In this document: positions 1,147-44,929 of the stretch, one piece after another | Numbering within the stretch: position 1 is the first letter of the stretch | Layout: each line of letters opens with the position of its first letter | DNA from: Cladocopium goreaui | Lineage: Eukaryota > Sar > Dinophyceae > Suessiales > Symbiodiniaceae | Direction: 5' to 3' | DNA length: 64,000 nucleotides | Assembly (NCBI GenBank): GCA_947184155.2 | Contig: CAMXCT020002369.1 | Coordinates: 304,662-368,661 of the forward strand | The notes under the pieces: model-generated | Told to the model about the DNA's origin: nothing | The model's input: only the letters and a program-made list of their open reading frames with translations | The model's database searches: none | Position numbers and translations under genes: made by a program

Positions 1147-1899
1147 CTGCCAGGCGCGACATGCTGTTAGTACAGGCTACAGAAGTATTAATTGAAAGCG
1201 CCAGGTTTCGATATGTCCACTACAGCTTCACCTACAAACATCACATCTCTTGTGGCGAAACGCATCTTGTCCATTCGTTCACATCTGAGCCAAGGAATGT
1301 ACAACGCACAATCCAATGCGAAGCATCTGCTCTTTCATTTCGAAACTGAAAACACGACTCCTGAGTTTGACATACCGAATAAGCTCTCTACCATGATGCC
1401 GTGGATGACCTCAGTTGCAAACAAAGGTGCGCAAACATAGTTGCAATGGAAACGCTTCAAAATTGCACAAGTGCACAAACAAAGGCTCAGTACCATGGTA
1501 TCCAAAAAACAACAAGTGAACGCAGTGAATGATTCCACAATAACAAGTTCGATATCATGATGGCATGGATGACACCTGTTTCACTGCATTTCTCCGATGT
1601 CCCTACAGGATCGAACAATCTTTACAGACAAACAACACCTGGCTACTGATTTAGCACGTTTGCCACGAACAGTTTCTCCAGGCGAACAGTGGTGCACATT
1701 AATTTGTGAGCGCAGTGAATGATTCCACAAAAACAAGTTCGATATCATGATGGCATGGATGACACCTGTTTCACTGCATTTCTCCGATGTCTCTACAGGA
1801 TCGAACAATCTTTACAGACTAACAACACTTGGCTACTGATTTAGCACGTTCGCCACGAACAGTCTCTCCAGGCGAACAGTGGTGCAAATTAATTTGTGC
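1147..1899 (-). other. Introner-like intron, copy B
   Basis: A 753-bp intron is inferred from phase-preserving ends: donor GC followed by ACAAATTAAT at 1899, and acceptor CTGGCAG at 1147. Its 5-prime part matches the next intron of the same gene (copy A). It also contains an internal tandem duplication of about 191 bp (1516-1706 versus 1707-1900). A CTGTACTAAC branch-like sequence lies near 1175-1166. Confidence 0.5.
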
Positions 1900-2185
1900 C
1901 CGCCGCACTCAGTTCCATGTGCCACTTGGCCCGCAAGCCTTCCAGCTGCCACAAGGCCTCCAAGACATAGGGGCGATTGTGCCAAGGGCGCAAGGCAGGT
2001 CTTTTCTCAAGCAGCAACTGGACGGCATCCTCTGCAGAGTAGTTGTAACCCACGACGAGCCAAGCACATAAAACCCCAGCGCTTCGATTGATGCCTCCAA
2101 AGCAATGGAAGAGCACGTGCATGGATTCGCCCCTGGTCACTGCCAGCATGGACTGTTTCCAGAGTTGGCCACAAACAATTTTCCA
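1900..2185 (-). CDS. Dual-specificity protein phosphatase catalytic exon (partial gene)
   Basis: This exon encodes the active-site half of a Cys-based dual-specificity or tyrosine phosphatase, an enzyme that removes phosphate from protein Tyr/Ser/Thr through a thiophosphate intermediate. The signature HCFGGINRSAG is present as H-C-x5-R-S, with the catalytic Cys and the phosphate-binding Arg both intact. A hydrophobic helix (GVLCAWLVV) follows, then a segment resembling the family's C-terminal helices (YSAEDAVQLLLEKRP, then RPYVLEALWQLE). The likely acceptor is ACTTGTCAG ending at 2186. The exon ends in phase 1 at a GC donor. The N-terminal half of the domain, with its general-acid Asp, is not in this exon, and upstream DNA is only tandem repeats, so earlier exons may lie beyond a repeat-filled intron. 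The frame continues by chance into the 72-bp repeats to 2632, so that long ORF should not be taken as the protein. The gene may be functional or a remnant. Confidence 0.65.
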
Positions 2186-2755
2186 CTGACAAGTAAAATC
2201 GCAATTTTTCCTCAGTTTTTGACGTCCAACGTCCATTTCGTGCGAAAGGGTTGCGATTGACAACTCAAAGTCGCAATTTTTCCTCAGTTTTTGACGTCCA
2301 ACGTCCATTTCGTGTGTAAGGGTTGCGATTGACACCTCAAAAGTCGCAATTTCAGTTTTTGACGTCCAACGTCCATTTCGTGCGAAAGGGTTGCGCGCGA
2401 CCAATGAAAGTTGCAATTTTTCCTCAGTTTTTGACGTCCAACGTCCATTTCGTGCGAAAGGGTTGCGCGCGACCAATAAAAGTTGCAATTTTTCCTCAGT
2501 TTTTGACGTCCAACGTCCATTTCGTGTGAAAGGGTTGCGCGCGACCAATAAAAGTTGCAATTTTTCCTCAGTTTTTGACGTCCAACGTCCATTTCGTGCG
2601 AAAGGGTTGCGCGCGACCAATAAAAGTTGCAATTTTTCCTCAGTTTTTGACGTCCAACGTCCATTTCGTGCGAAAGGGTTGCTGGGGACGCTTCAAAATC
2701 GCAATTTTACCTAGGTTTTGGACGTCCAACGTGCATTTCGTGCGAAAGGGTTGCG
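2186..2755. repeat. 72-bp tandem array, GACGTCCAACGTCC variant
   Basis: About 7.5 copies of a unit with period 72 (for example the TTGCAATTTTTCCTCAG marker at 2411, 2483 and 2555). Each unit carries TTTCGTGCGAAAGGGTTGCG, whose TTTCG-TG-CGAAA core is self-complementary. Six-frame openness follows from 72 being a multiple of three. The frame shifts between the first four and last copies, which argues against coding. Confidence 0.9.
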
Positions 2756-2821
2756 TTTCGTGGCGCTCCGGCGGCACCGCCCCCGCCTTAAGAGAGAATA
2801 GAAGAAGAGCGAGAGGAGATC
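2756..2821 (+). other. Conserved linker between 72-bp array and GTGAAGAT array
   Basis: The linker has GCGTTTCGTGGCG, then a GC-rich GCGGCACCGCCCCCGCC run, then AAGAGAGAATAGAAGAAG. A homologous linker is at 7868-7935 in the same position between the same two kinds of array. Confidence 0.6.
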
Positions 2822-3670
2822 TGCAGATGTGAAGGTGTGAAGATCTAGATCTGCAGGTGTGAAGGTGTGAAGATCTAGATCTGCAGGTGTGAGGGTGTGA
2901 TGCTGTAGATCTGCAGATGTGAGGGTGTGAAGATCTAGATCTGCAGGTGTGAGGATGTGAAGATCTAGATCTGCAGGTGTGAGGATGTGAAGATCTAGAT
3001 CTGCAGGTGTGAGGGTGTGAAGATCTAGATCTGCAGGTGTGAGGGTGTGAAGATGTAGATCTGCAGATCTAGATCTTCACAGGTGTGAAAGTATGAAGAT
3101 CTAGATCTGCAGATGTGAAGGTGCGAAGATCTAGATCTGCAGGTGTGAAGGTGTGAAGATCTAGATCTGCAGGTGTGAGGGTATGAAGATCTAGATCTGC
3201 AGGTGTGAGGGTGTGAAGATCTAGATCTGCAGATCTAGAGAGGAAGGGGGGTAAGGGTTCACTCCTGGGGGGGGAAGATAGAGAGCCGCGAAGGGGGGAG
3301 GGTTGATGAAGAGAGAGAGAGAGAAGGCCGGCCCCATTGTGAGGGTGTTTTGGTTTTGTAAAAGATCTAGATCTGCAGGTGTGAGGGTGTGAAGATGTAG
3401 ATCTGCAGATCTAGATCTTCACAGGTGTGAAAGTATGAAGATCTAGATCTGCAGATGTGAAGGTGTGAAGATCTAGATCTGCAGGTGTGAAGGTGTGAAG
3501 ATCTAGATCTGCAGATGTGAAGGTGTGAAGATCTAGATCTGCAGATCTAGATCTTCACAGGTGTGAAAGTATGAAGATCTAGATCTGCAGATGTGAAGGT
3601 GTGAAGATCTAGATCAGCAGATGTGAAGGTGTGAAGATGTAGATCAGCAGATCTGAAGGTGTGAAGATGT
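2822..3670. repeat. 30-bp tandem array with AGATCTAGATCTGCAG
   Basis: Units of about 30 bp combine the palindromic AGATCTAGATCT with GCAGGTGTGAAGGTGTGA. The array is interrupted at 3235-3370 by a non-repeat GA-rich stretch and contains several short inversions (AGATCTAGATCTTCACAGG). It ends near 3670, followed by GAAGAACCCTTCGC and GCTCTCGGGAA. Confidence 0.9.
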
Positions 3671-3717
3671 AGTATAACGGCTGCTTTTTTACGAAGAACC
3701 CTTCGCAGGCGCTCTCG

Positions 3718-4150
3718 GGAACTACAAAGAGCACATTTGAAGATCTCCTAAGATCGCTAAGATCTCCTAAGATCTTATAAGATCTTCTATCATATCCTAA
3801 GATCTTCAATCATCTCCTAAGATCTCCTAAATCTGGTTTGAAATTATGTTTGATCCAGGTCTCGGTGATTGAGCTGCATCAGAGTCGAGCTCTCCTCCTG
3901 ACAAGTCTCCTCTTGACAGGCCTGATCCGCAAGCGCCTGCATCATAAGAACCGCGAGAACCGCAACCCTCACCATGACTTGATGCCGAGTCTCCCAGAAT
4001 ACTCCAAGAATCTGACAATTCGAAAGGATCCAAAAGGGCCTACCTGTTGAGCCGGGCACTGCAGTCTCAACGTGCTCAGCCCTCGACTGGGCTACACTGC
4101 TACACTGCAACTGACTCTCGGAAGCCGATGCTTCTCCAAAGCTGACAGCG
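3718..4150 (+). repeat. Direct repeat, left copy (AAGATCTCCTAAGATC segment)
   Basis: About 430 bp nearly identical, in the same orientation, to 21323-21750. The left copy contains an extra 23-bp stretch (around 3973-3996, CCGCAACCCTCACC...) that is absent on the right. It starts with short AAGATCT repeats, then a unique segment. No protein is recognised in any frame. Confidence 0.9.
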
Positions 4151-4523
4151 TATCTAAATTGCCACTTGCGAAGTGCTACGCAATATTCACAATCCCACTA
4201 AATGAAAACCTTCTGCATTGGTAGACGAATCCTGCATTCAGAGAATAATCATCTACCTCGGACTGCGTTCACTGTCTTGCATCTTTTTTGCCTGCAACAT
4301 CCAGCCACGATGCCCATCCAGTGTCGAAAGCAACTCAAGAGTTTTCCCCTGCTATGGAGCACGGGCTGTTCTAATAGCAGTGGGAAATCAGTGCCTTCCG
4401 CTAAGGTGCAACAGCCGGCCACCGAAGCGTCCCTTATATCGAACATGACTCCCTTGTGAATGGAACCTGAAATATCAGGATGGACTTCTTTTGCGGAAAA
4501 AAGTCAGATTGCATCACGGCTAA
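4151..4523. other. No recognised feature
   Basis: Unique-looking sequence between the left direct repeat and the palindrome. Short open frames (65-85 codons) overlap on both strands and show no recognisable domain. Confidence 0.5.
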
Positions 4524-4785
4524 ACTTGGCGTTGTTAATTCATATGTCCATATGTTTTTTTGGTTTGAACTTGTTTCTCTTCTCTGCGCGATGTTTTGCG
4601 TGGCAGGCACAGCACTTCTGTCTACGTACTACTTGGCTCAAGTATGTCATTTGCTTGGCTCTGGTTGCTGGCTGACCTAAGGCTTGCAAAGGACAAGGGT
4701 ATCTAGATTTTATGACTAAGATGGCTCAAGTTTTCAGGCTCAAGTTTAAATATCAACAGTGAGAGTGTCAAAAGAAAACTAGACG

Positions 4786-4965
4786 ACGGATGGCCCGAGA
4801 GCGTAGAGGAGCAGAGTCTTCTGTTGTTAGTATGGAGACACTATATTACAAGACAATATATTAAAGATGTATTATGGTCAGACGAGAAGAGTAGTATCAA
4901 GACAATATATTACAAGTACAAGACAATAGTTTGCATCGTATCTTTCGTAAAGTTACAGACAGACG
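4786..4965 (+). other. Conserved coding-like head segment, copy 1
   Basis: This segment encodes in one frame DDGWPESVEEQSLLLLV followed by RHYITRQYIKD. The same segment occurs at 57288-57465 (open) and inverted at 18470-18640 (with one stop). It always precedes a 16-bp array. It may be a captured exon or part of a transposon ORF. No family is recognised. Confidence 0.5.
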
Positions 4966-7383
4966 CCTTTATACAAAGAACTTTTTACAGACAGACGCTT
5001 TTATTATACACACAGAGGCTTTTACACACAGACGCTTTTACACACAGAGCTTTTACACACAGACGCTTTTACACACAGACGCTTTTACACACAGAGACTT
5101 TTACACACAGACGCTTTTACACACAGACGCTTTTACACACAGAACTTTTTACAGACAGACGCTTTTTTATTATACACACAGAGGCTTTTACACACAGACG
5201 CTTTTACACACAGAGCTTTTACACACAGACGCTTTTACACACAGACGCTTTTACACACAGAGACTTTTACACACAGACGCTTTTACACACAGACGCTTTG
5301 ACACACAGACGCTTTTATGCACAAACACTTTTGCACACAAACACTTTTACACACAAACACTTTTACACACAGACGCTTTTACACACAGACGCTTTTACAC
5401 ACAGATGCTTTTACACACAGACGCTTTTACACACAGACGCTTTTACACGCAGACGCTTTTACACCACAGAGGCTTTTACACACAGATGCTTTTACACACA
5501 GAAGCTTTTACACACAGACGCTTTTACACAGAGACGCTTTTACACACAAACACTTTTACACACAGACACTTTTACACGCAGACGCTTTTACACACAGACG
5601 CTTTTACACACAAACACTTTTACACACAAACACTTTTACACACAGACGCTTTTACACACAGACACTTCTACACACAGACGCTTTTACACACAAACACTTT
5701 TACACACAAACACTTTTTACACACAGATGCTTTTACACACAGACACTTTTACACAGACGCTTTTACACACAGACGCTTTTACACACAAACACTTTTACAC
5801 ACAAACACTTTTTACACACAGATGCTTTTACACACAGACACTTTTACACAGACGCTTTTACACACAGACGCTTTTACACACAAACACTTTTACACACAAA
5901 CACTTTTTACACACAGATGCTTTTACACACAGACACTTTTACACAGACGCTTTTACACACAGACGCTTTTACACACAAACACTTTTACACACAGAGACTT
6001 TTACCCACAGAAGCTTGTACACACAGACGCTTTTACATACAAACACTTTTACACACAGAGACTTTTACACACAGAAGCTTTTACACACAGACGCTTTTAC
6101 ATACAAACTTTCACACACAAACGCTTTTACAGACAGACACTTTTACACACAAACGCTTTTACACACAGAAGCTTTTACACACAGACCCTTTTACACACAG
6201 ACGCTTTTACACACAGACACTTCTACACACAGACGCTTTTACACACAAACACTTTTACACACAAACACTTTTTACACACAGATGCTTTTACACACAAACA
6301 CTTTTACACAGACGCTTTTACACACAGACGCTTTTACACACAAACACTTTTACGCACAGAGACTTTTACCCACAGACGCTTTTACACACAGACGCTTTTA
6401 CATACAAACACTTTTACACACAGACGCTTTTACACGCAGACGCTTTTACACCAAAGAGGCTTTTACACACAGATGCTTTTACACACAGAGGCTTTTACAC
6501 ACAGACGCTTTTACACACAGATGCTTTTACACACAGACGCTTTTACACACAGACGCTTTTACACAAACACTTTTACAGACAAACACTTTTACACACAGAC
6601 ACTTTTACACACAGACACTTTTACACACAAACACTTTTACACACAGATGCCTTTTAGACACAGACGCTTTTACACACAAACACGTTTACACACAAACACT
6701 TTTACACACGGAAGCTTTTACACACAGACACTTCTACACACAGACGCTTTTACACACAAACACTTTTACACACAAACACTTTTTACACACAAACGCTTTT
6801 ACACACAGACACTTTTACACACAAACACTTTTACACACTGACGCTTTTACACACAAACACTTTTACACACAGAAGCTTTTACACACAGACGCTTTTACAT
6901 ACAAACCCTTTTCCACACAAACGCTTTTTCAGACAGAGATTTTTACACGCAAACGCTTTTACACACAGACGCTTTTGCACACAGAAGCTTTTACACGCAG
7001 GGACTTTTACACACAAACGCTTTTACACACAGACGCTTTTAGACACAGACGCTTTTGCACACAAACACTTTACACACATACACATTTACACACAAACACT
7101 TTTACACACAGACACTTTTACACACAGACGCTTTTACACACAGACGCTTTTAATTACAAACAGACGCCTTTACACACAGATGCTTTTACACACAGACGCT
7201 TTTACACACAGACGCTTTTACACACAGACGCTTTTACACGCAGACGCTTTTACACACAGATGCTTTTACACACAGACGCTTTTACATACAAACACTTTTA
7301 CACACAGACGCTTTTACACCACAGAGGCTTTTACACACAGAAGCTTTTACACCACAGAGGCAGACACATTTACACACAGAAAA
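4966..7383 (+). repeat. 16-bp tandem array TTTTACACACAGACGC, left arm
   Basis: About 150 degenerate copies with common variants at the last bases (GACAC, AACAC, GAAGC, GATGC, GAGGC). Because 16 is not a multiple of three and the unit has no stop on this strand, all three plus frames stay open and read the same 16-residue periodic peptide. This yields open frames of up to 885 codons that I do not regard as genes. Confidence 0.95.
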
Positions 7384-7880
7384 AATCGCAATTTTACCTC
7401 AGTTTTGAGCGATCGAACCTCGTTTCGTGCGAAAGGGTTGCGCCGGACACTTCAAAATTGCAATTTTACCGCAGTTTTTAGCGATCGAACCTCATTTCGT
7501 GCGAAAGAGTTGCGCGGGACACCTTGAAATCGCAATTTTACCGCAGTTTTTAGCGATCGAACCTCATTTCGTGCGAAAGGGTTCGCGGGACGACTTGAAA
7601 TCGCAATTTTACCGCAGTTTTTGCCGATCGAACCTCATTTCGTGCGAAAGGGTTGCGCCGGACACTTCAAAATTGTAATTTTACCGCAGTTTTGAGCGAT
7701 CGAACCTCATTTCGTGCGAAAAGGTTGCGCCGGACACCTTGACATCGCAATTTTACCGCAGTTTTTAGCGATCGAACCTCATTTCGTGCGAAAGCGTTCA
7801 CCGGAAACACGAAATCGCAATTTTACCTCAGTTTTTAGCGATCGAAGCTCATTTCGTGCGAAAGGGATGCGTTTCGTGCC
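7384..7880 (+). repeat. 72-bp-type array, GCGATCGAACCTC variant
   Basis: About seven units of roughly 70-72 bp with GCAATTTTACCGCAG, AGCGATCGAACCTC and TTTCGTGCGAAAGGGTTGCG. It shares the last element and the GCAATTTT start with the array at 2186-2755 but has a different middle. Confidence 0.9.
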
Positions 7881-7935
7881 GTCTCGTTGGCACTGCCCCT
7901 GCTCCCGCCTTCAAGAGAGAAATAGAAAAGAAGGA
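7881..7935 (+). other. Conserved linker, second copy
   Basis: A GC-rich CCCCTGCTCCCGCC run, then TTCAAGAGAGAAATAGAAAAG, homologous to 2756-2821 and in the same position between a 72-bp array and a GTGAAGAT array. Confidence 0.6.
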
Positions 7936-8535
7936 GAGGGCAAGAGGGCAAGAGGGCAAGAGGAGAAGATGTGAGATGAGAAGATGTGAAGATGAGAAGA
8001 TGTGAAGATGAGAAGATGTGAAGATGAGAAGATGTGAAGATGAGAAAATGTGAAGATGAGCAGATGAGAAGATGAGAAGATGTGAAGATGAGAAGATGTG
8101 AAGAGGAGAAGATGTGAGGATGAGAAGATGTGAAGATGAGAAGCTGTGAGGAGGAGAAGATGTGAAGATGAGAAGATGTGAAGATGAGAAGATGTGAAGA
8201 TGAGAAGATGTGAAGAGGAGAAGATGTGAAGAGGAGAAGATGTGAGGATGAGAAGATGTGAAGATGAGAAGATGTGAGGAGGAGAAGATGTGAAGATGAG
8301 AAGATGCGAAGATGAGAAGATGTGAAGATGAGAAGATGTGAAGATGAGAAGATGTGAAGAGGATAAGATGTGAAGATGAGAAGATGTGAAGATGAGAAGA
8401 TGTAAAGATGAGAAGATGTGAAGATGAGAAGATGTGAAGATGAGAAGATGTGAAGATGAGAAGGTGTGAAGATGAGAAGATGTGAGGAGGAGAAGATGTG
8501 AAGATGAGAAGATGTGAAGATGAGAAGATGCTTTA
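7936..8535 (+). repeat. 16-bp tandem array GATGTGAAGATGAGAA, left arm
   Basis: The period is 16 bp (TGTGAA marker at 7985, 8001 and 8017), with about 37 copies. The minus strand is open in several frames for the same arithmetic reason as the other 16-bp array. It is followed by a boundary motif GAAGAACCCTGCGCTCAG and GCTCTCGGGAAAA at 8553-8585. Confidence 0.95.
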
Positions 8536-8579
8536 CAGACCCCCACTATTGGAAGAACCCTGCGCTCAGACGCTCTCGG

Positions 8580-9059
8580 GAAAATGGGTGGTGGTTTGGT
8601 GCGGGAATTTTATATAGGCTCAAGTCTTAAAGACGAACCATAACAGCGAGTGTGTAAAAAAAATGGGTGGTTGTTTGGTGTGGTAATTGCTCAAGTCTTA
8701 AAGACCGACCATGGCCAACCGATAAAAAGGGAAACTGGTGGTAAAGGTGGGCAACTGGTGGAGCTGTGGGCAGGATGGCTGGATGACTCGACGCTATGGG
8801 TTGTGCCACCCAAACATAATGAGCTTTTAAACTTGTGGGATGACAATGATGATACTTGAACATGATTCAATTTTGTTTGATTTAACTCGTTTCACTAACA
8901 TGTGATAAGCATCACCAAAACAAAAATAAAGAATATTAAAGTAAGAAGTAAACAACAGTAACAAAAAGTGATAATAATAAATAATGATAACAATAATAAC
9001 AATAGTAATGAAAGTAATAATAATAAAAATAATCAATGAACAACAACTAACAACAACAC
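8580..9059 (+). other. GGTCGGTC/CTTAAAGAC segment and AT-rich stretch
   Basis: Two copies of a unit with GGGTGG, TTTGGTG and CTCAAGTCTTAAAGAC lie at 8586-8720. A related pair in the right arm sits at 18640-18800, on the other side of the 16-bp array. From 8880 to 9060 the sequence is AT-rich with ATAATAA repeats. No gene is seen. Confidence 0.6.
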
Positions 9060-9575
9060 TGAACCATGAACCAGGAACATTTTTTTCAGTGATGGTGGTC
9101 TTACCCCTCACTTTTTCATATTTTTCATTTTTTTTGAGAAGAAGGTCTTACCCTTGGTCGTTTCATTTGTCAGTCCTCTGGTCTTCACCAGGTGGAGAAG
9201 AACTCCTGGTTGTTACAGTGCCAGATCAATGAACAACAACAGTAATTTTATTCAACAACAACACTGAACCATGAACTGTTTTTTCAGTGATGGTGGTCTT
9301 ACCCCTCACTTTTTTCATACTCATTTTTTGAGAAGAAGGTCTTACCCTTCTTCGTTTCATTTGTCAATCCTCTGGTCTTCACCAGGTGGAGAAGAACTCC
9401 TGGTTGCTACAGTGCCACAAAATCGGCAAAAAATCTGGAACCATGAGCATGTCATTTTGTTTTTGTTCAGTGATGGTGGTCTTACCCCTCACTTTTTTTC
9501 ATATTTTCATTTTGTCAATCCTCTGGTCTTCACCAGGTGGGAAAGACCTCCTGGTCTTCACCAGGGGGGGGCAGG
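9060..9575 (+). repeat. About 190-bp tandem repeats (GGTCTTACCCCTCAC)
   Basis: Nearly three copies (starting about 9075, 9265 and 9455) each contain TTCAGTGATGGTGGTC, TTACCCCTCACTTTTT, GTCAATCCTCTGGTC and TTCACCAGGTGG. The inverted counterpart is at about 14760-15140. Confidence 0.85.
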
Positions 9576-10199
9576 GCGTGCCCAAAAATCACCGCACGAT
9601 GCTGGGAGATAGTTTCAGTGGGACAGCTGCTGGTTGTATAGTTTCAGTGGGAGATGTTGGGCTTAACGCTCCCATGTTTGGTTGAAAAATCCATGCTTTT
9701 TAGTGTATTTTTCCATTAATTTGGTGGTTCTTTCCCCTTGGCTTTGTGCCATCAATTCAGTGGACCCGATCTCTTCTTCGGATTTTTATGGGCCCATGCT
9801 ATGATTCACAGCTGCTGGTTGGATAGTTTCAGTGGGAGATGCTGGGCGGATGTAATTGGATAAAACAAGTGGACATTTCAAGCACACTGGATTCCTAGAA
9901 TCATGTCTCGGACAGGATCTCGTGCACTAAACTATGTGGTGTTCGAAAGTCCTTTTGGGGCTCCGTTTCGGGACCATTACGGACACCACCAAAAGAGTGA
10001 TATGATATGATATGATATGATATGATATGTCACTAGTTGGTCATGAATTCCAGCCTACATACAATGTTGATGATACATTGCGAACTACGGATGCAATGGA
10101 TGACACTGGTTGGCACTATACGGATGTATTATTCCCTGTATTCCTTCTACTGGTTGCCACGTTCAAGATGGCCTTAGTTGCTTCTCAAATACTGCCAGC
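9576..10199 (+). other. Arm-specific segment with (TATGA)n
   Basis: This stretch carries the GGGAGATGCTGGGCG, GGACCATTACGGACACC and (TATGA)6 motifs and a CACTAGTTGGTCATGAATTC segment, all repeated inverted at 14020-14740. The short open frame at 10027-10368 has no recognised homology. Confidence 0.7.
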
Positions 10200-10920
10200 A
10201 CTGTTTGGCTCAGATTTTTTTTGCCGCAACCATTTTTATAAGGTGCCAATTTTTATTGTCAACTGTTTTGCTCCGATTTTTTTCCCAACAATCATGTTTA
10301 TAAGGCGCATGTTTTTTGATCCTACGCTGTTTGGTTCAGAATTACTTTGGGCACAGTCATTTTTATAAGGTGCCACTTTTTGCAACTGATTTGCTCCGAT
10401 TTTTGTTCGCAACAGTCATTTTTATAAGGCGCATTTTTTTATCCTACGCTGTTTTGTTCAGATTTTTTTGGGTACAGTCATTTTCATAAGGTGCCATTTT
10501 TTTCAACTGTTTTGCTCCGATTTTTTTGGCAACAGTCATTTTTTAAGGCGCATTTTTTTTATCCTACGCTGTTTGGCTCAGATTTTTTGGGCCGCAGTCA
10601 ATTTTATAAGGTGAATTTTTTGTTCAACTGTTTTGCTCCGAATTTTTTCGCAGCAGTCATTTTTATAAGGTGCGTTTGTTTATCCTTAGGTTGGCTCAGA
10701 TTTTTTTCGCCGCAGACATTTTTATAAGGTGCCATTTTTTTCAACTGTTTTGCTCCGATTTTTCTGGCAACAGTCATTTATAGATTGCTGGTTTTTTATT
10801 TTACGTTTTTAGGGTGCCATTTTTTCTTCAACTGTTTTGCTCCGATTTTTTTTGGCCACTGTCTTTTTTATAAGGTGCATTTTTTTACCTTACGCTGTTT
10901 GGCTCAGTTTTTTTTGGCAC
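10200..10920 (+). repeat. About 60/120-bp degenerate array (TTTTTATAAGGTGC)
   Basis: Alternating units with AACAGTCATTTTTATAAGG, CATTTTTTTCAACTG, TTTTGCTCCGATTTTTTT and TACGCTGTTTGGCTCAG. The inverted counterpart at 11410-13160 is more than twice as long. Confidence 0.9.
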
Positions 10921-11010
10921 CGCCCAAGTTCAAGATGACCTACGGTGCTTCTAAAAGGCTGCGCGTGCCACTGCCCTCTCAAATACTGCGCGCCTACTAC
11001 TGCCCATAGT

Positions 11011-11339
11011 TAGATACCAGAAACAGTAATCACCTAACTCACCGGGACCGGGACGAAAACATGTGACTAGGGTACAGCGGTACCAACGCTCAATTTATGG
11101 CTCCCTTACGCGCCCTCGGACCGGTCTGGCAATGCGTAAGGGAGCCATAAATTTATGGTTCCCTTACGCGCCCAACGCTCTAACGCTCTTTCGCGGCCCC
11201 GGACCGGTCTGGCAATGCGTAAGGGAGCCATAAAGTTGTGCATATGAATTAACGTCGCTCAATTTTTGATTTTTTTTGGTTGTAGTTACCATGTTGACTG
11301 AACTTTGACTGAACTTTTAACCAGTTAACATTAAATTTG
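11011..11339. other. Palindrome spacer with two tandem hairpins
   Basis: This central spacer contains TTTATGGCTCCCTTACGC (11094) and its reverse complement (ending at 11152), then TTTATGGTTCCCTTACGC (about 11153) and its complement (ending at 11235). Each pair encloses GGACCGGTCTGGCAATG. The stems are 18 bp and near perfect. They may be nested miniature inverted-repeat elements. Confidence 0.7.
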
Positions 11340-11409
11340 CGCAGTAGCAGGCGCGCAGTATTTGAGAAGGCAGTGGCACGCGCAGCATTTTAGAAGCACC
11401 ATAGGTCAT

Positions 11410-13160
11410 CTTGAACTTGGGCGGTGCCAAAAAAAATTGAACCAAACAGCGTAGGAAAAACAATGCGCCTTATAAAAATGACAGTGACCAAAAAAATGGA
11501 GCCAAACAGTTGAAGATAAAAAATTGGCACCTTAGAAGAATGTCTGTGGCAAAAAAATCTGAGCCAAACAGTGTAAGATAAAAAATGTGTTTTATAAAAA
11601 TGACTATTGCCAAAAAAAAATCGGAGCAAAACAGTTGGAAAAAAAAAAACATAAAAATGATTGCGGCGAAAAAAATCTGAGCCAAACAGTGTAAGATTAA
11701 AAAAAAATGTGCGGTATAAAAATGACAGTTGCCAAAAAATCGGAACAAAACAGTTGAAAAAAAATGGCGCCTAAAAAAAAAACAGTGGCCGAAAAAACTC
11801 TGAGCCAAACAGCATACGATAAAAAAAATGTGCCTTATAAAGATGATTGCTGCGAAAAAAATCGAAGCAAAGCAGTTGAAAAAAATGCACCTTACAAAAA
11901 TGATTGCGGCCAAAAAAAACAACCAAACAGTGTTGGATAAACAAATGAAACCTTATAAAAACGAGCCTTGCCAAAAAAATCGGAGCAAAGCAGTTGAAAA
12001 AAATGGCGCCTTATAAAGATGACTGTGCCAAAAAATCTGAACCGAACAGCGTAGGATAAAATAAATGCGCCTTATAAAAATATCAGTGGCCGAAAAAATC
12101 GGAACCAAACACTTGAAGATAAAAAATTGGCACCTTATAAAAATGACTGTGCCCAAAAAAATCTGAGCCAAACAGTGTAAAATAGAAAAAAAATGTGCCT
12201 AGGGCCAAAAAAATCGGAGCAAAGCACTTGAAAAAAAAATGCGCCTTATAGAAATGACTGCGGCGAAAAAAATTAACCAAACGGTGTAAGATAAAAAAAA
12301 AATGCGCCTTATAAAAATGACTCTTGCCAAAAAAAATCGGAGCAAAACAGTTGAAAAAAAATGCACCTTATAAAAATGACTGCGGCCAAAAAAAATCTGA
12401 ACCAAACAGTGTAAGATATAAAAATGCGCCTTAGAAAAATGACTGTTGCCAAAAAAATCAGAGCAAAGCAGTTGAAAAAAAATGTGCCTTATAAAAATGA
12501 TTGCGGCGAAAAAAATCAACCAAACAGTGTAGGACAAAAAAACATGTGCCTTATAAAAATGATTGTTGCCAAAAGAATCGGAGCAAAACAGTTGACAAAA
12601 AAATTGCACCTTATAAAAATGACCGCGGCGAAAAAAAAATCAACCAAACAGTGTAGGATAAAAAATTGTGCCTTATAAAAATGATTGTTGCCCAAAAAAT
12701 CGGAGCAGAGCAGTTGAAAAAAATGCGCCTTATAAACATGACTGCGGCGAACAAAAATCTGAGCCAAACAGCGTAAGATTAAAAAATGCGCCTTATAAAA
12801 ATGACTGTGGCCAAAAAAATCGGAGCAAAACAGTTGAAAAACAAATCACCTTATAAAAATGACAGCGGCCAAAAAAATCTGAGCCAAACAGTGTAGGATA
12901 AAAAAAAATGCGCCTTAAAAAATGACTGTTGCCAAAAAAAATCGGAGCAAAACAGTTGAAAAAAATGGCGCCTTATAAAAATGACTGCGGCCCAAAAAGA
13001 AACTGGACCAAACACCGTAGGATAAAAAAATGCACCTTATAAAAATGACTGTTGCCCAAAAAAACGGAGCAAAACAGTTGAAAAAAATGTAACCTTATAG
13101 AAATGTCTGTGGCCAAAAAAACAGAGCCAAACAGTGTAAGATAAAAAATGGCACCTTATA
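11410..13160 (-). repeat. About 60/120-bp degenerate array, right arm
   Basis: Reverse complement of the 10200-10920 repeat, with about 28 half-units. CCTTATAAAAATGACTG and GAGCAAAACAGTTGAAAAA recur throughout. Confidence 0.9.
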
Positions 13161-13169
13161 CTTGAAACA

Positions 13170-13995
13170 ACTATGTCCATTTTAAACGTGGCAGCTGGCA
13201 GGGGCAGTATTTGAGAAACAACTATGGCTATATTGAATTTGGGGAGTAGCAGGCGCAATATTCAAGAAACCATTATGTCGATCTTGAACGTGGCAACTGG
13301 CAGGGACAGTATTTGAGAAACAATTATGGCCATCTTGAACGTGGCAACTGGCAGGGGCAGTATTTGAGAAGCAACTGTGGCCATCTCGATCGTGGCAGCT
13401 GGCAGGGGCAGTATTTGAGAAGCAACTATGGCCATCTTGGACGTGGCAACTGGCAGGGGCAGTATTTGAGAAGCAACTATCGCCATCTTGAACATGGCAG
13501 CTGGCAGGGGCAGTATTTGAGAAGCAATTATCGCCATCTTGAACATGGCAGCTTGCAAGGGCAGTATTTGAGAAGCAATTACTGCGCCCTCCAGTTGCCA
13601 CGTTCAAGATGGCCATAGTTGTTTCTTAAATATTGCGTCTGCAATTTCCCAAATTTAATATGACCATAGTTGCTTCTCAAATACTGCCCCTGCCAGTTGC
13701 CATGTTCAAGGTGGACATAATTGTTTCTTAAATATCGCGCCTGCAACTTCCCAAATTTAATATGGCCATAGTTGCTTCTCAAATACTGCCCCTGCCAGCC
13801 GCCACGTTCAAGCTGGCCATAGGTGCTTTTCAAATGCTGCCCCTGCCAGTTGCCACGTTCAAGATAACCATAGTTGCTTCTCAAGTACTGCCCCTGCCAG
13901 TTGCCACGTCAAGATGGCCATAGTTGTTTCTCAAATGCTGCCCGTGCCAGTTGCCACGTTCAAGATGGCATTCTTGGACGTGGCAACTGGCAGGG
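13170..13995. repeat. About 50-bp array with internal inversion
   Basis: Units of GTTGCCACGTTCAAGATGG, CCATAGTTGCTTCTCAAA and TACTGCCCCTGCCA occur in reverse orientation from 13170 to 13605 and in forward orientation from 13600 to 13990. They form a secondary hairpin with arms of about 0.4 kb. Confidence 0.9.
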
Positions 13996-13999
13996 GCAG

Positions 14000-15560
14000 T
14001 ATTTGAAAAGCAGCTATGGCCATCTTGAACGTGGCAACCAGTAGAAGGAACACAGGGAATAATACATCCGTATAGTGCCAACCAGTGTCATCCACTGCAT
14101 CCGCAGTTCGCAATGTATCATCAACATTGTATGTAGACTGGAATTCATGACCAACTAGTGACATATCATATCATATCACTCTTTTGGTGGTGTCCGTAAT
14201 GGTCCCGAAACGGAGCCCCAAAAGGACTTCCGAACACCACATAGTTTAGTGCATGAGATCCTGTCCCAGACATGATTGTAGGAATCCAGTTTGCTTGAAA
14301 TGACATATAGAAAGTCCACTTATTTTATCCAATTAAATCCGCCCAGCATCTCCCTCTGAAACTATCCAACCAGCAGCTGTGAGTCATAACATGGGCCCAT
14401 AAAAATCTGAAGAAGAGATCGGGTCCACTGAATTGATGGCACAAAGCCAAGGGAAAACACTATAAATCATGGATTTGTTCGATCCAAAAAGGTGAGCGTT
14501 AAGCCCAACATCTCCCACTGAAACTATCCAACCAGCAGCTGTGAGTCATGACATGGGCCCATAAAAATCTGAAGAAGAGATCGGGTCCACAGAATTGATG
14601 GCACAAAGCCAAGGGGAAAGAACCACCAAATTAAATGGGAAAATGCAGTAAAAGTCATGGATTTTTTCGATCAAAAATGGTGAGCGTTAAGCCCAGCATC
14701 TCCCACTGAAACTATCTAACCAGCAGCTGTCTCACTGAAACTCTCTCCCAGCATCGTGCGGTGATTTTTGGGCACGCCCTGCCCCCCCCCCCGGTGAAGA
14801 CCAGGAGGTCCTTTAATTCCACCTGGTGAAAACCAGGGGATTGACAAATGAAACGAAGAAGAGTAAGACCTTCTTCTCAAAAAATGAATGTGAATCAAAG
14901 TGAGGGGTAAGACCACCATCACTGAAAAAATGTTCATGGTTCAGTGTTGTTGTTTCAGAATATTGTTATTATTATTATTGTTGTTGTTGTTCTTCATTGA
15001 TCTGGCACTATAAGAACCAGGAGTGCTTCTCCACCTGGTGAAGACCAGAGGATTGACAAATGAAACGACGAAGGGTAAGACCTTCTCCTCAAAAAATGAG
15101 TATGAAAAAAGTGAGGGGTAAGACCACCATCACTGAAAAAAATGTTCGTGGTTCATGGTTCAGTGTTGTTGTTAGTTGTTGCTCATAGTCTTCTATTTTT
15201 ATTATTACTACTATTGCTATTATTATTGGTGTTATTGTTATTTATTATTATCACGTTTTATTGTTGCTTACTTGTTACTTCTGTTCATATTCTTTATTTT
15301 TGTTATTGTGATGGTTCTCACATGCTAGTGAAACGAGTTAATCAAACTAAATTGAATCATGTTCAAGTATCATCATTGTAATCCCCAAATTTACCTTCCC
15401 CACACTGGTTAAGTTTAAAGCCTCATAATGTTCGGGTGGCACAAACCATAGCGTCCAGTCGTCCAGTCATCCTGCCCACATTTCCACCAGTTGCCCACCT
15501 TTACCACCAGTTTCCCTTTTTTCCCGAGAGCATCTGAGCGCAGGGTTCTTCCAATAGTGG
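14000..15560 (-). other. Right-arm counterpart of 8540-10190
   Basis: This stretch contains the inverted equivalents of the CACTAGTTGGTCATGAATTC segment, the GGTCTTACCCCTCAC repeats, the AT-rich stretch and the GAAGAACCCTGCGCTCAG boundary (about 15535-15575). The GGGAGATGCTGGGCT segment with ATCTCTTCTTCAG is duplicated here (14330-14500 and 14500-14700). No gene is seen. Confidence 0.7.
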
Positions 15561-15569
15561 GGGTCTGTA

Positions 15570-15990
15570 AAGCATCTTCTCATGTTCATACCTTCTCATC
15601 TTCACATCTTCTCCTCCTCACATCTTCTCATCTTCACATCTTCTCATCTTCACATCTTCTCATCTTCGCATCTTCTCATCTTCACATCTTCTCCTCCTCA
15701 CATCTTCACATCTTCTCATCCTCACATCTTCTCCTCTTCACATCTTCTCCTCTTCACATCTTCTCATCTTCACATCTTCTCATCTTCACATCTTCTCGTC
15801 TTCACATCTTCTCCTCCTCACAGCTTCTCATCTTCACATCTTCTCATCCTCACATCTTCTCCTCTTCACATCTTCTCATCTTCACATCTTCTCATCTTCT
15901 CATCTGCTCATCTTCACATTTTCTCATCTTCACATCTTCTCATCTTCACATCTTCTCATCTCACATCTTCTCCTCTTGCCCTCTTGCCCT
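15570..15990 (-). repeat. 16-bp tandem array GATGTGAAGATGAGAA, right arm
   Basis: Inverted counterpart of 7936-8535, about 26 copies. It ends in three copies of TTGCCCTC. Confidence 0.95.
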
Positions 15991-16002
15991 CTTGCCCTCT
16001 TA

Positions 16003-16190
16003 AATGAGGTTCGATCGCCAAAAACTGAGGTAACATTGCAATTTTGAAGTGTCCGGCGCAACCCTTTCGCACGAAATGAGGTTCGATCGCCAAAAACTGA
16101 GGTAACATTGCAATTTTGAAGTGTCCGGCGCAACCCTTTCGCACGAAATGAGGTTCGATCGGCAAAAACTGAGGTAAAATTGTGTTTTTT
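16003..16190 (-). repeat. 72-bp-type array, right arm
   Basis: About 2.5 units of the GCGATCGAACCTC variant in reverse orientation, contracted relative to the left arm. Confidence 0.9.
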
Positions 16191-18465
16191 TCTGTGTGTA
16201 AATGTGTCTGCCTCTGTGGTGTAAAAGCTTCTGTGTGTAAAAGCATCTGTGTGTAAAAGCCTCTGTGGTGTAAAAGCGTCTGCGTGTAAAAGTGTCTGTG
16301 TGTAAAAGCGTCTGTGTGTAAAAGCATCTGTGTGCAAAAGCGTCTGCGTGTAAAAGCGTCTCTGTGTAAAAGCGTCTGTGTGTAAAAGCGTCTGTGTAAA
16401 AGCATCTGTGTGTAGAGGCGTCTGTGTGTAAAAGCGTCTGTGTGCAAAAGCGTCTGTGTGTAAAAGTGTTTGTGTGTAAAAGTGTTTGTGTGTAAAAGTG
16501 TTTGTGTGTAAAAGCGTCTGTGTGTAATAAAAGCGTCTGTGTGTAAAAGCGTCTGCGTGTAAAAGCTTCTGTGTGCAAAAGCTTCTGTGTGTAAAAGCGT
16601 TTGTGTGTAAAAGTCTCTGTCTGTAAAAGCGTTTGTGTGGAAAAGGGTTTGTATGTAAAAGCGTGTGTGTAAAAGCTTCTGTGTGTAAAAGTCTCTGTGT
16701 GTAAAAGCGTCTGTGTGTAAAAGCGTCTGTGTGTAAAAGCGTCTGTGTGTAAAAGCATCTGTGTGTAAAAGTGTTTGTGTGTAAAAGTGTTTGTGTGTAA
16801 AAGCCCCTGTGTGTAAAAGCGTCTGTGTGTAAAAGTGTTTGTGTGTAAAAGTGTTTGTGTGTAAAAGCGTCTGTGTGTAAAAGCGTCTGTGTAAAAGTGT
16901 TTGTGTGTAAAAGTGTTTGTGTGTAAAAGCGTCTGTGTGTAAAAGCGTCTGTGTGAAAGCGTCTGTGTGTAAAACCGTCTGTGTGTAAAACCGTCTGTGT
17001 GTAAAAAATTCTGTGTGTAAAAGCGTCTGTGTGTAAAAACGTCTGTGTGTAAAAGTGTCTGTGTGTAAAAGTGTTTGTGTGTAAAAGTGTTTGTGTGTAA
17101 AAACGTCTGTGTGTAAAAGCGTCTGTGTGTAAAAGTGTTTGTGTGTAAAAGTGTTTGTGTGTAAAAGCGTCTGTGTGTAAAAGCGTCTGTGTGTAAAAGT
17201 GTTTGTGTGTAAAAGCGTCTGCGTGTAAAAGTGTCTGTGCGTAAAAGTGTTTGTGTGTAAAAGCATCTGTGTGTAAAAGCGTCTGTGTGCAAAAGTCTCT
17301 GTGTGTAGAAGCGTCTGTGTGTAAAAGCGTTTGTGTGGAAAAGGGTTTGTATGTAAAAGCGTGTGTGTAAAAGCTTCTGTGTGTAAAAGTCTCTGTGTGT
17401 AAAAACGTCTGTGTGTAAAAGTGTCTGTGTGTAAAAGTGTTTGTGTGTAAAAGCGTCTGTGTGTAAAAGCGTCTGTGTGTAAAAGCGTCTGTGTGTAAAA
17501 GCGTCTGTGTGTAAAAGCGTCTGTATGTAAAAGCGTCTGCGTGTAAAAGTCTCTGCGTTTAAAAGCGTTTGTGTGTAAAAGCGTTTGTGTGTAAAAGCGT
17601 TTGTGTGTAAAAGCGTCTGTGTGTAAAAGCGTCTGTGTGTAAAAGCTTCTGTGTGTAAAAGCGTTTGTGTGTAAAAGTCTCTGTCTGTAAAAGCGTTTGT
17701 GTGTAAAAGTTTGTGTGTAAAAGCGTCTGTGTGTAAAAAGCATCTGTGTGTAAAAGTCTCTGTGTGTAAAAGTGTTTGTATGTAAAAGCGTCTGTGTGTA
17801 AAAGTCTCTGTGTGTAAAAACGTCTGTGTGTAAAAGTGTCTGTGTGTAAAAGTGCTTGTGTGTAAAAGTGTTTGTGTGTAAAAGCGTCTGTGTGTAAAAG
17901 CGTCCGTGTGTAAAAGTGTTTGTGTGTAAATGTGTTTGTGTGTAAAAGCGTCTGTGTGTAAAAGCGTCTGTGTGTAAAAGTGTTTGTGTGTAAAAGCGTC
18001 TGCGTGTAAAAGCGTCTGTGTGTAAAAGTGTTTGTGTGCAAAAGCATCTGTGTGTAAAAGCGTCTGTGTGTAAAAGTCTCTGTGTGTAGAAGCGTCTGTG
18101 TGTAAAAGCGTCTGTGTGTAAAAGCTCTGTGCGTAAAAGCGTCTGTGTGTAAAAGCGTCTGTGTGTAAAAGCGTCTGCGTGTAAAAGTGTCTGTGTGTAA
18201 AAGTGTTTGTGTGTAAAAGCGTCTGTGTGTAAAAGCGTCTGTTTGTAAAAGTGTTTGTGTGTAAAAGTGTTTGTGTGTAAAAGCGTCTGTGTGTAAAAGC
18301 GTCTGTGTGTAAAAGCTCTGTGTGTAAAAGTCTCTGTGTGTAAAAGCGTCTGTGTAAAAGCGTCTGTGTGTAAAAGCTCTGTGTGTAAAAGTGTCTGTGT
18401 GTAAAAGCCTCTGTGTGTAAAAGCGTCTGTGTGTAAAAGTGTTTGTGTAAAAGCGTCTGTCTGTA
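16190..18465 (-). repeat. 16-bp tandem array TTTTACACACAGACGC, right arm
   Basis: About 140 degenerate copies in reverse orientation. The minus-strand frames are open to 837 codons because of the repeat arithmetic. Confidence 0.95.
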
Positions 18466-18469
18466 ACAT

Positions 18470-18800
18470 TACGAAAGATACGATGCAAACTATTGTCTTG
18501 TACTTGTCATATATTGTCTTGATACTACTCGTCTCGTCTGCCTATAATACATCTTTAATATATTGTCTTGTAATTTAGTGTCTCCATACTAACAACAGAA
18601 GACTCTGCTCCTCTACGCTCTTGGGCCATCCGTCGTCTAGTTTTCCGGTTGGTCATGGTCGGTCTTTAAGACTTGAGCAATTACCACACCAAACAGCCAC
18701 CCACTGTTTTTTTAACACTCTCGCTGTTGTGGTCGGTCTTTAAGACTCGAGCCTATATAATAACTACCGCACCAAACCACCACCCATTTTTTTCTTTTGA
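18470..18800 (-). other. Head segment (right arm) plus CTTAAAGAC units
   Basis: 18470-18640 reads on the minus strand as the conserved head (LDDGWPKSVEEQSLLLLV, then a stop in the RHYITRQYIKD part). 18650-18800 holds two copies of the CTTAAAGACCGACC unit with GAGAGTGTTAAAAAAA, which the left arm carries at 8586-8720 instead. Confidence 0.6.
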
Positions 18801-19045
18801 CACTCTCGCTGTTGATATTTAAACTTGAGCCTGAAAACTTGAGCCATCTTAGTCATAAAATCTAGATGCCCTTTTCCTTTGTAATTCTTAGTCAGCCAGC
18901 AACCAGAGCCAAGCACATGACATACTTGAGCCAAGTAGTACTTAGACAAAAGTGCTGTGCCTGCCACGCAAAACCTCGCGCAGAGAAGAGAAACAACTTC
19001 AAACCAAAAAAAAGCATATGGACATATGAATTAACAACGCCAAGT

Positions 19046-19875
19046 AAAAGAGTAGGAAATGGTTTAGGAAGACGCTACACAGGAATAGGAAATGGTTTGG
19101 AAAGGCGCTACATTATGCTAAATTTTGCTGCTAAATGCTAAATTGGTCTTTTCTTTCATATACTTTGATCCGTGTTTAGTAACCTTTGAGAGCAATTTGC
19201 CTTTCTACTCCTGTGTGCACGCAACATCACGCAACATGCTACAACGCATGTCTTCAACATGCCTTGCACATCTTCATTACTGGTTGATCACATGTTGGGC
19301 TTGACTCTATCATCAAACAGGCAGCATCCTCAACAGAAGCAGCTCCAAAAACAGCTCAACAGGAACCAAAGGACACCTCGGCGGTTCTGCTGCTGCTTTT
19401 GAGGTATACTCCGAGCCCTCATGAGCTACACTATGAGCCACAAGCAGACGACTCAACTGGGCCTGCCGTGCAGCCATCTGAATTGAGAACGAGCCAAGTA
19501 GCTGAGCCTTCAAACAATCTGCAGACCTCGTCTCTTGCGACAAGGACCGCCCAAAGCCTGGAGCAACCTGGTTTTTACTCTAATTGTAGTCCTTCTCTGT
19601 GTGGGCTTCTTTGGAAACTTCGCCCAACAAGCCCACCAGACCAACCACTGACATCAAGGGGAAGAATCAAGAAGCCAAAATAAGCCAATTACAGGCTGAA
19701 TATATATATATATGTCATGTCTTTCTTGACCAAGGTCTACTCAAAAGGCCCCCCACAGACTTTGGATAGAGTCACCCCACTGGCTGGCAATGCTAAAGGA
19801 CAACAAAACTGATCCTTCATGTTGATTCATTTTCAACCGTCAATCGGATTGGCGGCGGGTTCCCCCCGGACCAAA
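19046..19875. other. No recognised gene
   Basis: 19055-19140 has two copies of GGAAATGGTTTRGRAAGRCGC. Opposed open frames at 19313-19543 (minus, 76 codons) and 19399-19683 (plus, 94 codons) overlap and neither is recognised. A short (TA)n lies near 19705. Confidence 0.5.
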
Positions 19876-21045
19876 TCAATCGCCGACCAGCCAGCTGAAG
19901 GCACAAGACTCAATTAAGCAGTTCATACTTCGATCAAAAATGGTCTCCCAACTCACGTGGAGGAGTAGTTGGCAATGAACGAGGCGTTGGTGTCTGAGAT
20001 GAAGGGTGCAACAAGAAGACGAGATGGTGCCGGTTGCACATTACCACCCATGTTTCGGCCATACTCCAACAAGTCTGCGCACATACGGTCCATGTTCTGT
20101 GCCGACAGAATGCAGTACTCTCGATCCACGTGCCATGTCACTTCGGCTGGAGAACATTTGTAATTGTCGTAGGACGTACCGGTGGTGGAGCCAATGTACA
20201 CAATTGAGTCTCTGACTGGTTCGCGCCAGGTCTCGTTGAACATTTTGTATTCTTGTTCTGGCCAGTTCACGATGCGACAGATCTGTCCTCGCACAAAGGC
20301 CGTTGGATTTATGGATCGATTGAAGACACCACCCAAGCCGCCCGACAAAACCCCGTCAATGGGCCCGGCCGTGGAATGGACCCAGTGAAACTCATAGGTG
20401 TAGCCCATCTTCACATTTTTGCAAGATGTCCAGTTGTAATCATCCAAGGTCCAGCTGACATTGGTTGGTGGTCCCTGGTCCACCGAAGCGCAAAAATATC
20501 CTGGGCGGATGTCATTCGGAACGATATCCCCAAGCACGGCATCGGTATAGTTGAGGGAATAGCCCCCATCATCCACGTTTTGGTGTTCACCACCCAAGTG
20601 AAAGTGCGTGTTCACGTGGATCAGATTGGGGAACTCATCGTACAAACCTCGGAAATGATTCCAAACTCTTCCAACACATTCGATGGATTTCAACTCACAA
20701 CAGCGTTGAACAACAGTTGAACTGAAATCTATAGGTACTGGATGTTCTTTCCAATTCTAGTTTTACGATGTTTTACGGCATTAATTACATGCTCTTCACG
20801 GAACAAAACTTTGTGACTTTGTGTGATTCATCCAGGAACCGACGGGCTGCACTTCCGGAGGCAACAATCCACGAAATCTTTACTCACGTTGCGTGGCGAC
20901 TGCGGCTCTGAGTTGGAGCAAGGATAGCGTGGAGGCGCCGGGGGGGAGGAGGAGCTGGGTGACTCTCTCGACGTGAGTCAATGATCTTCTTCTTGACCCA
21001 CCATGGAAGACCCTCATTCAACTCATTGAGCTCATCACCCGTCAT
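19876..21045 (-). CDS. Delta-class carbonic anhydrase, three inferred exons
   Basis: Zinc metalloenzyme converting CO2 and water to bicarbonate and a proton. The delta class is typical of diatoms and dinoflagellates and serves carbon concentration. I infer complement(join(19876-19894, 19957-20721, 20888-21045)): 942 nt, 313 residues. Both introns (166 and 62 bp) start GTGAGT and end CAG, and phase is kept at both joins. Family motifs: NTHFHLGGEH near residue 80-90 (His-rich zinc site), YEFHWVHSTAG mid-protein, then GSTTGTSYDN and EVTWHVDREYCILSA near the C-terminus, all matching the TWCA1-type family as I know it. Cys residues suggest disulfides and several N-x-S/T sites suggest an extracellular or lumenal location, but the chosen start (ATG at 21045, after an in-frame stop at about 21075) gives no signal peptide, so a 5-prime exon may be missing. 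The very short last exon (ending WLVGD) is the least certain part. Length fits the family. It is the only intact-looking gene here. Confidence 0.85.
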
Positions 21046-28213: not shown

Positions 28214-28419
28214 GGCTTTCTTTCAGGCCTCCCTTTGAAATTGTTGTTCCAAAGCTATTTTTTGCTTGAAGCTTCAAAAATGGCTGCAGGGACACACTTT
28301 GCACAGCAGTTGGCAACTAAATCTACTACATGCAGCTGCACAAAAGTTTCAAGTGCCAAAGTAAAACCTGATCTCACAGGGGATTTAATAAAGAGAGCTA
28401 GAATCACAAACGGGATTTT

Positions 28420-30605: not shown

Positions 30606-31320
30606 GTCCACAGCCAGTTGGCCAACAAAGCCATCCACTCTGGGTTGTTGTGCTCAGCTGCGGCCGTGACCGCCTCCAGGAATGGGATCATACCCGGCTC
30701 AGCCACCACCGCCTGCTGCCTCTTCCTGGTACGTGTGTTGGGAGCCTCAGGGACGCTGACATTCACCAGGTTCCAGTTCATGCAGCTTTGCTGAGCCACT
30801 TCAACGACGCAATGGCCATCACTGGGCCGTCAGCGCCTTCTTGCACGAACGTGGCGAAGTCTTCGACGACCTCGAGCCCTCTATCCTCTTGACAGTGCGC
30901 CAATTCTTTCCAGGTGCGAATCGCATTCATGATAGTTTGGCTATCAGCATGTGCGACTTTTTGCTGGGCAAGGTGGCGCAGCTTTTGCCATTCTGCCAGG
31001 CGATCTTCGGTGACCTGATGGGTCTGGGTCGTACCTGTTGGCAGCCAGGGACGCCTCTGGGTTCCGGCCTTCAGTGGGCTTTGGGACTCTATCGCCACCA
31101 CTAGAACTCCCTCGTCTGCCTTGGAGCGGGCTGCAACCCACTGCGCTGCCAGCGCAATGTCCACCCGCAGACATTGCGTCCGCATAGCTCGCGAAAGCGT
31201 AGGCCAGGTCGCCATCATCTATAAGCCGAAGTGTTGCCGCACCTCGAGAGCCCTTTCCAGGGGGACGTGACCTCGATGGCCTTTTCTGGGTCCCAGACCA
31301 CTTCCCCCACTGCCTCCAAC
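30606..31320 (-). pseudogene. Retroelement-like protein (recombinase-type N-terminal region), fragment 1
   Basis: Minus frames read IDDGDLAYAFASYADAMSAG, then, after a frame change, LRHLAQQKVAHADSQTIMNA, EVVEDFATFVQEGADGP and MAIASLKWLSK. Another shift leads to QAVVAEPGMIPFLEAVTAA and EWMALLANWLW. The last two blocks resemble the region preceding the catalytic domain of tyrosine-recombinase-type elements in dinoflagellates. The catalytic part itself is absent, because the frame runs into the hairpin array at 30605. Several frameshifts indicate decay. Confidence 0.45.
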
Positions 31321-44915: not shown

Positions 44916-44929
44916 TAAACCGTTTACTT

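Follow-up and report, generated by a model that had tools for sequence, protein, structure and literature searches.

Among described foldback elements, Tetris of Drosophila virilis has target-site duplications (TSD) of 8-10 bp and arms of 1.7 kb, and the available part of its description records no autonomous relatives as found (PMC4079207). Target duplications of hAT transposons are given, in an excerpt of PMC12730594, as 8 bp, with 5-7 bp in hAT5/6/7. In Symbiodinium, a dinoflagellate, most CG sites are reported to be methylated and methyltransferases to lie inside retrotransposons, SymbioLINE-Dnmt and SymbioDIRS-Dnmt3, that carry a C5 DNA methyltransferase; the same source, in the portion available, mentions methyltransferase-bearing DNA transposons for marine viruses (PMC5890265). 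Tyrosine recombinases of Amoebidium have database matches that include dinoflagellates (PMC11244446, in extract). Among the titles and abstract beginnings listed by our searches of the open PMC literature we found no dinoflagellate DNA transposon with a methyltransferase, and the accessible part of the giant-transposon review PMC6431247 contained nothing of this kind.

A 14.5-kb palindrome with tandem arrays

The window, that is, the whole stretch of 64,000 nucleotides analysed here, corresponds to C2369:304662-368661 of the Cladocopium goreaui assembly (1.17 Gb, 6202 contigs), and this same assembly was the genome used for all copy counts. An initial annotation had described in it an imperfect palindrome of ~14.5 kb, with modules of tandem arrays in mirrored order and arms of 6.5 and 7.7 kb. 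This palindrome is real: the reverse complement of the right arm covered 6468 of the 6481 left-arm bases (the plain reverse covered 0 and the direct strand 44), the mirrored module order was recovered by self-comparison and the arms measured ~6.5 kb and ~7.7 kb. Its exact limits are 4525 and 19044 (14,520 bp), one base inside the 4524 and 19045 originally given.

The left arm begins with the tip CTTGGCGTTGTTAATTCATATG (4525..4546, +; detected in a scan for the 22-bp tip) and its outermost module is A (4525..4778, +). This is followed by a 3802-bp segment (4779..8580, +) containing the 177-bp unit B, a 16-bp array, a 72-bp array and an AAGATG array, then by module B', the CTTAAAGAC unit (8585..8722, +), modules F, G1 and G2 (8724..10196, +), a 59/121-bp array (10199..10918, +) that belongs to the element, being present in the copies on contigs C2835 and C1963 as well, and an inner mirrored edge (10918..11008, +). 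On the other side of the spacer we find the right inner edge (11341..11427, -), an expanded version of the 59/121-bp array (11425..13160, -), a pair of abutting inverted arrays (13164..13969), modules G2, G1 and F (13995..15521, -), a 3118-bp segment (15523..18640, -) with the same repeat as the left one at a different position, module B' (18646..18790, -) and the outermost module A (18791..19044, -), which ends in the right tip (19023..19044, -; same scan). The inverted arrays at 13164-13969 have a 51-bp unit and correspond to the extra inverted 50-bp array of the initial annotation. The central spacer reported there as ~330 bp is present too, and as the inner edges of the arrays are also mirrored its true length is ~340 bp (about 11009-11349). 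It holds strong hairpins (TTTATGGCTCCCTTACGC...GCGTAAGGGAGCCATAAA at 11094-11234) and, as a scan for the tip core GTTAATTCATATG showed, one internal occurrence of it (11241..11253, -).

Identity between the arms in five segments outside the arrays was 95.6% (A), 92.7% (B'), 95.8% (G2), 93.3% (edge) and 90.5% (F1); the 83.9% obtained for the F/G segment is in part an underestimate from misaligned internal repeats. With 90.5-95.8% in unique segments, the arms resemble each other neither by chance nor as an assembly mirror, for which arm identity of essentially 100% had been proposed as the diagnostic. An assembly artefact, either mirror or chimera, is thus extremely improbable, the unique segments differing by 4-10% between arms and the same design recurring in independent copies (see below). 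What speaks for it is a one-ended match on contig C6186 (267061-267987), which is 99.9% identical to the left end of the window element over 801 bases including the flank (100% in B), while the spacer and the right end were looked for on that contig and not found. C6186 is a second assembled version of the left end of the same locus.

No match reached the Pfam cut-off in the seven frames of the window element scanned outside the two 16-bp-array frames (4824-7481 and 15956-18469), and the strongest matches below cut-off fell in repeat arrays. Rfam and tRNA scans of the whole window gave nothing, and the only trace of a dinoflagellate spliced-leader relic in the window was one 12-base match with 1 mismatch. 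Elsewhere in the window there are about 66 copies of a 32-bp hairpin unit (28404-30608, CTTCACAAA..TTTGTGAAG), an array that matches its own reverse complement because the unit itself is a hairpin, and a 322-bp tandem repeat of about four copies (40314-41608). A Copia-like reverse transcriptase fragment (44088-44915, -; neighbouring frames 43247-47386) matched RVT_2 below cut-off (E 1.3e-5), and at 1889-2632 (-), adjoining a 72-bp array, a frame matches part of a dual-specificity phosphatase domain with a score over cut-off (DSPc, E 2.5e-9).

Insertion in a tandem array

The palindrome carries identical inverted 22-bp tips at both ends and TAAA abuts each of them (4521..4524 and 19045..19048), each TAAA being matched by the one on the other side and by an empty site. 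The latter, C2369:284440-284620, located 24.7 kb upstream, is uninterrupted by the element and has a single TAAA; compared with the joined flanks over 181 aligned bases it shows two base differences and one 2-base gap. The right flank repeats on C2369 and C6186, often at ~3.1-kb steps, with 9 further matches at 94-97% identity among the 15 matches listed. The unit to the right of the element holds a delta carbonic anhydrase gene (window 19953-20693), and part of this unit matches C2369:301369-302161 at 97%. An empty unit with one TAAA and a filled site with TAAA on both sides therefore show that the 14,520 bp were inserted, with a 4-bp duplication, into a single one of the ~3.1-kb units of a tandem array. 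The empty site illustrates how a transposon can pass for a giant satellite palindrome.

The initial annotation had offered three possibilities, a giant foldback transposon, a replication or recombination product and a chromatin-organising site. The first is supported by the target duplication, the empty site and the other copies, and the palindrome is very probably a non-autonomous copy of a family of foldback-type DNA transposons; the other two are not needed to explain the whole. A strand-switch or chromatin-boundary element would account for the mirror symmetry and for that alone, and the simple insertion within a tandem array leaves it a practically negligible probability. An inverted segmental duplication, or a replication or recombination product of ordinary satellite DNA without mobility, is very improbable as well: the arms do join at hairpins, their arrays are expanded to different extents, and the mirrored form seen in the window is more symmetric than the copy in C2835, where a single side of the spacer has the 59-bp array and the edge, but the exact tips, the 4-bp duplication, the empty site and the other copies argue against it. 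It survives only as the origin of the mirrored interior, which inverted copying may have produced within the foldback transposon.

Differences between the arms

In the copies of C2835, C3651 and C1963 module A is directly followed by B', as in the right arm of the window element. In the left arm, the unit that starts with B and continues with the 16-bp, 72-bp and AAGATG arrays separates A from B', and in the right arm it separates B' from F; the two segments sit at different A-runs with AAAA on each side (4775-4778 and 8581-8584 for the left one). B is a dispersed high-copy repeat with 1783 first-look candidates in the genome, and the 40 that were scored were all at least 95% identical; the left B was 98% identical to dispersed copies versus 97% to the right B. 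The placement of the CTTAAAGAC unit on opposite sides of the 16-bp array, which had been taken for a module relocation, is a true difference of position. Because of the A-B' adjacency in other copies, the AAAA flanks and the left B being as near to dispersed copies, the comparison is best read as two independent later insertions, one per arm, rather than as relocation. The two inserts total 6.9 of the 14.5 kb and include most of the array sequence; without them the element measures 7592 bp (7.6 kb), comprising arms and central hairpin region. Arrays related to the 72-bp and AAGATG arrays of the inserts, and ending similarly (GCGCTCTCGGGAA), are also present at window 2187-3720, as are another B unit with a 16-bp array at 57286-57715 and another 16-bp array at 61030-62995.

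Two families of related copies

A search of the same genome for similar loci, as the initial annotation had suggested, retrieved dispersed copies with the same tips, unrelated flanks and 4-bp duplications. The 22-bp tip (up to 2 mismatches) was found at 16 places genome-wide, 14 of them exact, against 1 for the reversed-pattern control, and all fall at module A loci. Module A itself gave 17 matches of at least 205 bases plus one fragment, distributed in six two-ended and five one-ended loci, and the arm ends that were read start with CTTGGCGTTGTTAATTCATATG or a sequence very like it, the flanks being different between loci. These copies (family 1) vary widely in size, from 11.2 kb in C1764 to 14.5 kb in the window, 17.1 kb in C2835, 24.0 kb in C5120, 32 kb in C2452 and 42 kb in C119, where the sequence examined contains N runs. 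Mirrored arms of 1.4-3.0 kb are found in C2835, C5120 and C1764. All 6 two-ended copies have an exact 4-bp target duplication (TAAA, ATGA, CAGG, TTTA, CAGG and TTGA for the window copy, C5120, C2835, C1764, C119 and C2452, respectively), compared with 13 equal pairs among 1536 4-mer pairs at other offsets.

Matches to the central hairpin (75%) and methyltransferases (~51% identity) on several shared contigs led to a second family. Its compact representative, at C5219:336835-344132, measures 7298 bp and has arms of 1399 bp (99.6% identical), tips CTTGCCGATGTTAA and duplication GGGA; inside it are frames for the C-terminal part of the transposase, central hairpins and a methyltransferase frame open over 430 aa. 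The 23-bp tip of family 2 was located at 42 places genome-wide (41 exact; control 0), and 9 of 13 two-ended loci had a 4-bp duplication, versus 0/154 for mismatched pairs. One of the copies with a duplication, C3689 (27 kb), has matches to the recombinase, the methyltransferase and the candidate transposase described below. No 4-bp duplication was found in C158, which has three tips, nor in C502:231901-254848, C779:879461-902458 and C3290:239926-262900. These last three measure 22,948-22,998 bp and have the recombinase, methyltransferase and transposase matches at equal offsets within ~40 bp. In the left flank of C502 a tip-like sequence is followed by GCTTAA and then by the tip, and the left flank of C779 likewise ends in GCTTAA. 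Pooling both families, a 4-bp duplication with varied targets was present in 15 of 19 two-ended copies.

Genes carried by the longer copies

A tyrosine-recombinase-like gene was found in four family 1 relatives; in C2835 and C5120 it is split between two frames, and in C1764 and C119 it contains stops. Its protein matched a PHROG integrase with E 5.4e-4 over only 57 residues, and gave no Pfam match and no significant match in the PDB search; inspected by eye, it appears to have the R..E / HxxRH / Y motifs. In two of these four relatives, C5120 and C119, the gene is accompanied by a C5 DNA methyltransferase and by a candidate transposase distributed in several frames, and no match to the latter was found in C2835 and C1764. 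The methyltransferase is clear, with PF00145 (5.9e-33 in C5120 and 4.4e-41 in C5219) and TIGR00675 over the cut-off and a HhaI match of 2.3e-25.

The candidate transposase reached neither Pfam nor NCBIfam cut-offs and had no significant PDB or PHROG match; in a test for a BED-like zinc finger it matched zf-C17orf113 below cut-off (E 0.0024). Inspection by eye suggests a zinc finger, two conserved Asp and a motif similar to hAT-C, features in which it would resemble hAT transposases. The hAT-C domain PF05699 had 15 matches in the genome, 12 over cut-off, and none at any candidate-transposase locus. An ordinary hAT is also excluded by the 4-bp TSD against the 5-8 bp given in the available extract of PMC12730594, and a member of the Mutator superfamily, proposed for Tetris with its TSD of ~8-10 bp (PMC4079207, partial text), by the 4 bp of 6/6 family 1 copies. 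Because both assignments fail, we keep the term "candidate". A colinear relative in C2391 is open in one frame over at least 1011 aa, and no scored methyltransferase lies within 10 kb of it.

In addition, the cores of C2835 and C5120 contain a frame of 838 or 784 aa (L012:1907-4420 (-); L009:2614-4965) with a RapZ-like C-terminal match below cut-off (E about 1e-4) and, for one of them, a very weak glycosyltransferase hint (E 0.04). Four scans of viral contigs, two with the candidate transposase and one each with the 838-aa protein and with the methyltransferase, yielded no relatives. Between copies, dN/dS was 0.30 and 0.28 for recombinase parts, 0.48 for the methyltransferase, 0.45 and 0.49 for the 838-aa frame, 0.27 for a 205-aa frame, 1.42 and 1.74 for a 212-aa frame, and 0.85, 0 (two differences) and 1.36 for other frames. 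The four transposase pieces gave 1.74, 0 (one difference), 0.55 and 1.00, and those with 1.00 and 1.74 give no sign of selection; with so few differences the whole set neither shows nor excludes it.

Candidate transposase and methyltransferase are regularly found together. After merging 98 transposase matches into 76 loci and 140 methyltransferase matches into 136 loci (counts that cover the scored candidates, 111 of 136 and 140 of 567, respectively), 62 of the 76 transposase loci were within 3 kb of a methyltransferase, when ~0.1 would be expected within 5 kb; seen from the methyltransferase side, this amounts to 62 of 136 loci. For the recombinase, 34 of 45 loci were within 12 kb of a methyltransferase or transposase, a count based on 38 methyltransferase places (of 140) and 20 transposase places picked by contig. 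In eight contigs, recombinase matches in both orientations flank a methyltransferase, so that these elements may often include genes in their mirrored arms.

The elements could alternatively be moved by the tyrosine recombinase rather than by the candidate DDE transposase. C2835 and C1764, with no match to the candidate transposase, do contain the recombinase-like gene, as do the three ~23-kb family 2 copies without target duplication, but the 4-bp duplication in 15/19 two-ended copies, including the recombinase-bearing C3689, and the compact C5219 element with no recombinase match make this unlikely. The ~23-kb copies, with all three genes present, count against our main reading.

Proposed mechanism

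For movement by the candidate transposase, we propose that this protein, encoded by the longer relatives, recognises the tips, in which the core GTTAATTCATATG starts ten bases in, and would make a 4-bp staggered cut. Allowing up to 1 mismatch, this core is confined to the two ends and the centre of the element in the window copy, C2835 and C5120, and to the ends in C1764. In family 2, for which a single copy was scanned, the corresponding core GTTAAATGTAGACC lies at the ends and the centre has a version of it with one mismatch; neither core appeared in copies of the other family (four of family 1 and one of family 2 scanned). The centre core thus tracks the end core by family, as expected of a shared binding site, and the central hairpins might act as an additional site of binding or regulation. 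Since C1764 has a duplication but now lacks a central hairpin, this hairpin is dispensable or was later lost. The fully mirrored form could have arisen if one half of the element was copied, inverted, across the central hairpins, after which the arms would have drifted about 5% apart. The methyltransferase of the relatives may mark or protect the DNA of the element, and the recombinase may act on intermediates or direct insertion.

Comparison with known elements

Like other foldback transposons, these elements have array-bearing long terminal inverted repeats, a target duplication with an empty site, and dispersed copies with unrelated flanks. The similarity to Tetris, as far as the accessible text of PMC4079207 describes it, extends to internal tandem repeats in long terminal inverted repeats, a variable middle, non-autonomous copies, few complete copies and rearranged forms, but here the TSD is 4 bp, the arms are longer and there are candidate autonomous relatives. 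The chances are about even that they represent a new superfamily of DNA transposons, characterised by CTTGSCG tips, a 4-bp TSD, a central hairpin with the tip motif of its own family and autonomous forms of ~23-24 kb with a DDE transposase, a C5 methyltransferase and a tyrosine recombinase, the last providing a second route of insertion without target duplication.

A methyltransferase that is a regular neighbour of the candidate transposase in DNA transposons would add another source of this enzyme, and why mobile elements carry methyltransferases would become testable in a single genome with many related copies. A DNMT retrotransposon was rejected, as no reverse transcriptase was present in the 19 frames scanned against Pfam (17 from C2835 and C5120, and 2 from C3651 that may or may not lie within the element). 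SymbioDIRS-Dnmt3 also combines a methyltransferase with a tyrosine recombinase, but SymbioLINE and SymbioDIRS have a reverse transcriptase, and the elements described here have terminal inverted repeats and a 4-bp TSD (PMC5890265, in the part available). The giant repeats of Amoebidium are similarly large and pair a Plavaka transposase with tyrosine recombinases; they are described in the excerpt of PMC11244446 as tandem gene clusters. Finally, fungal TET/JBP DNA transposons of several superfamilies also carry their own DNA-modification enzyme, in their case a dioxygenase that oxidises 5-methylcytosine (PMC12730594, in excerpt) and here a methyltransferase.
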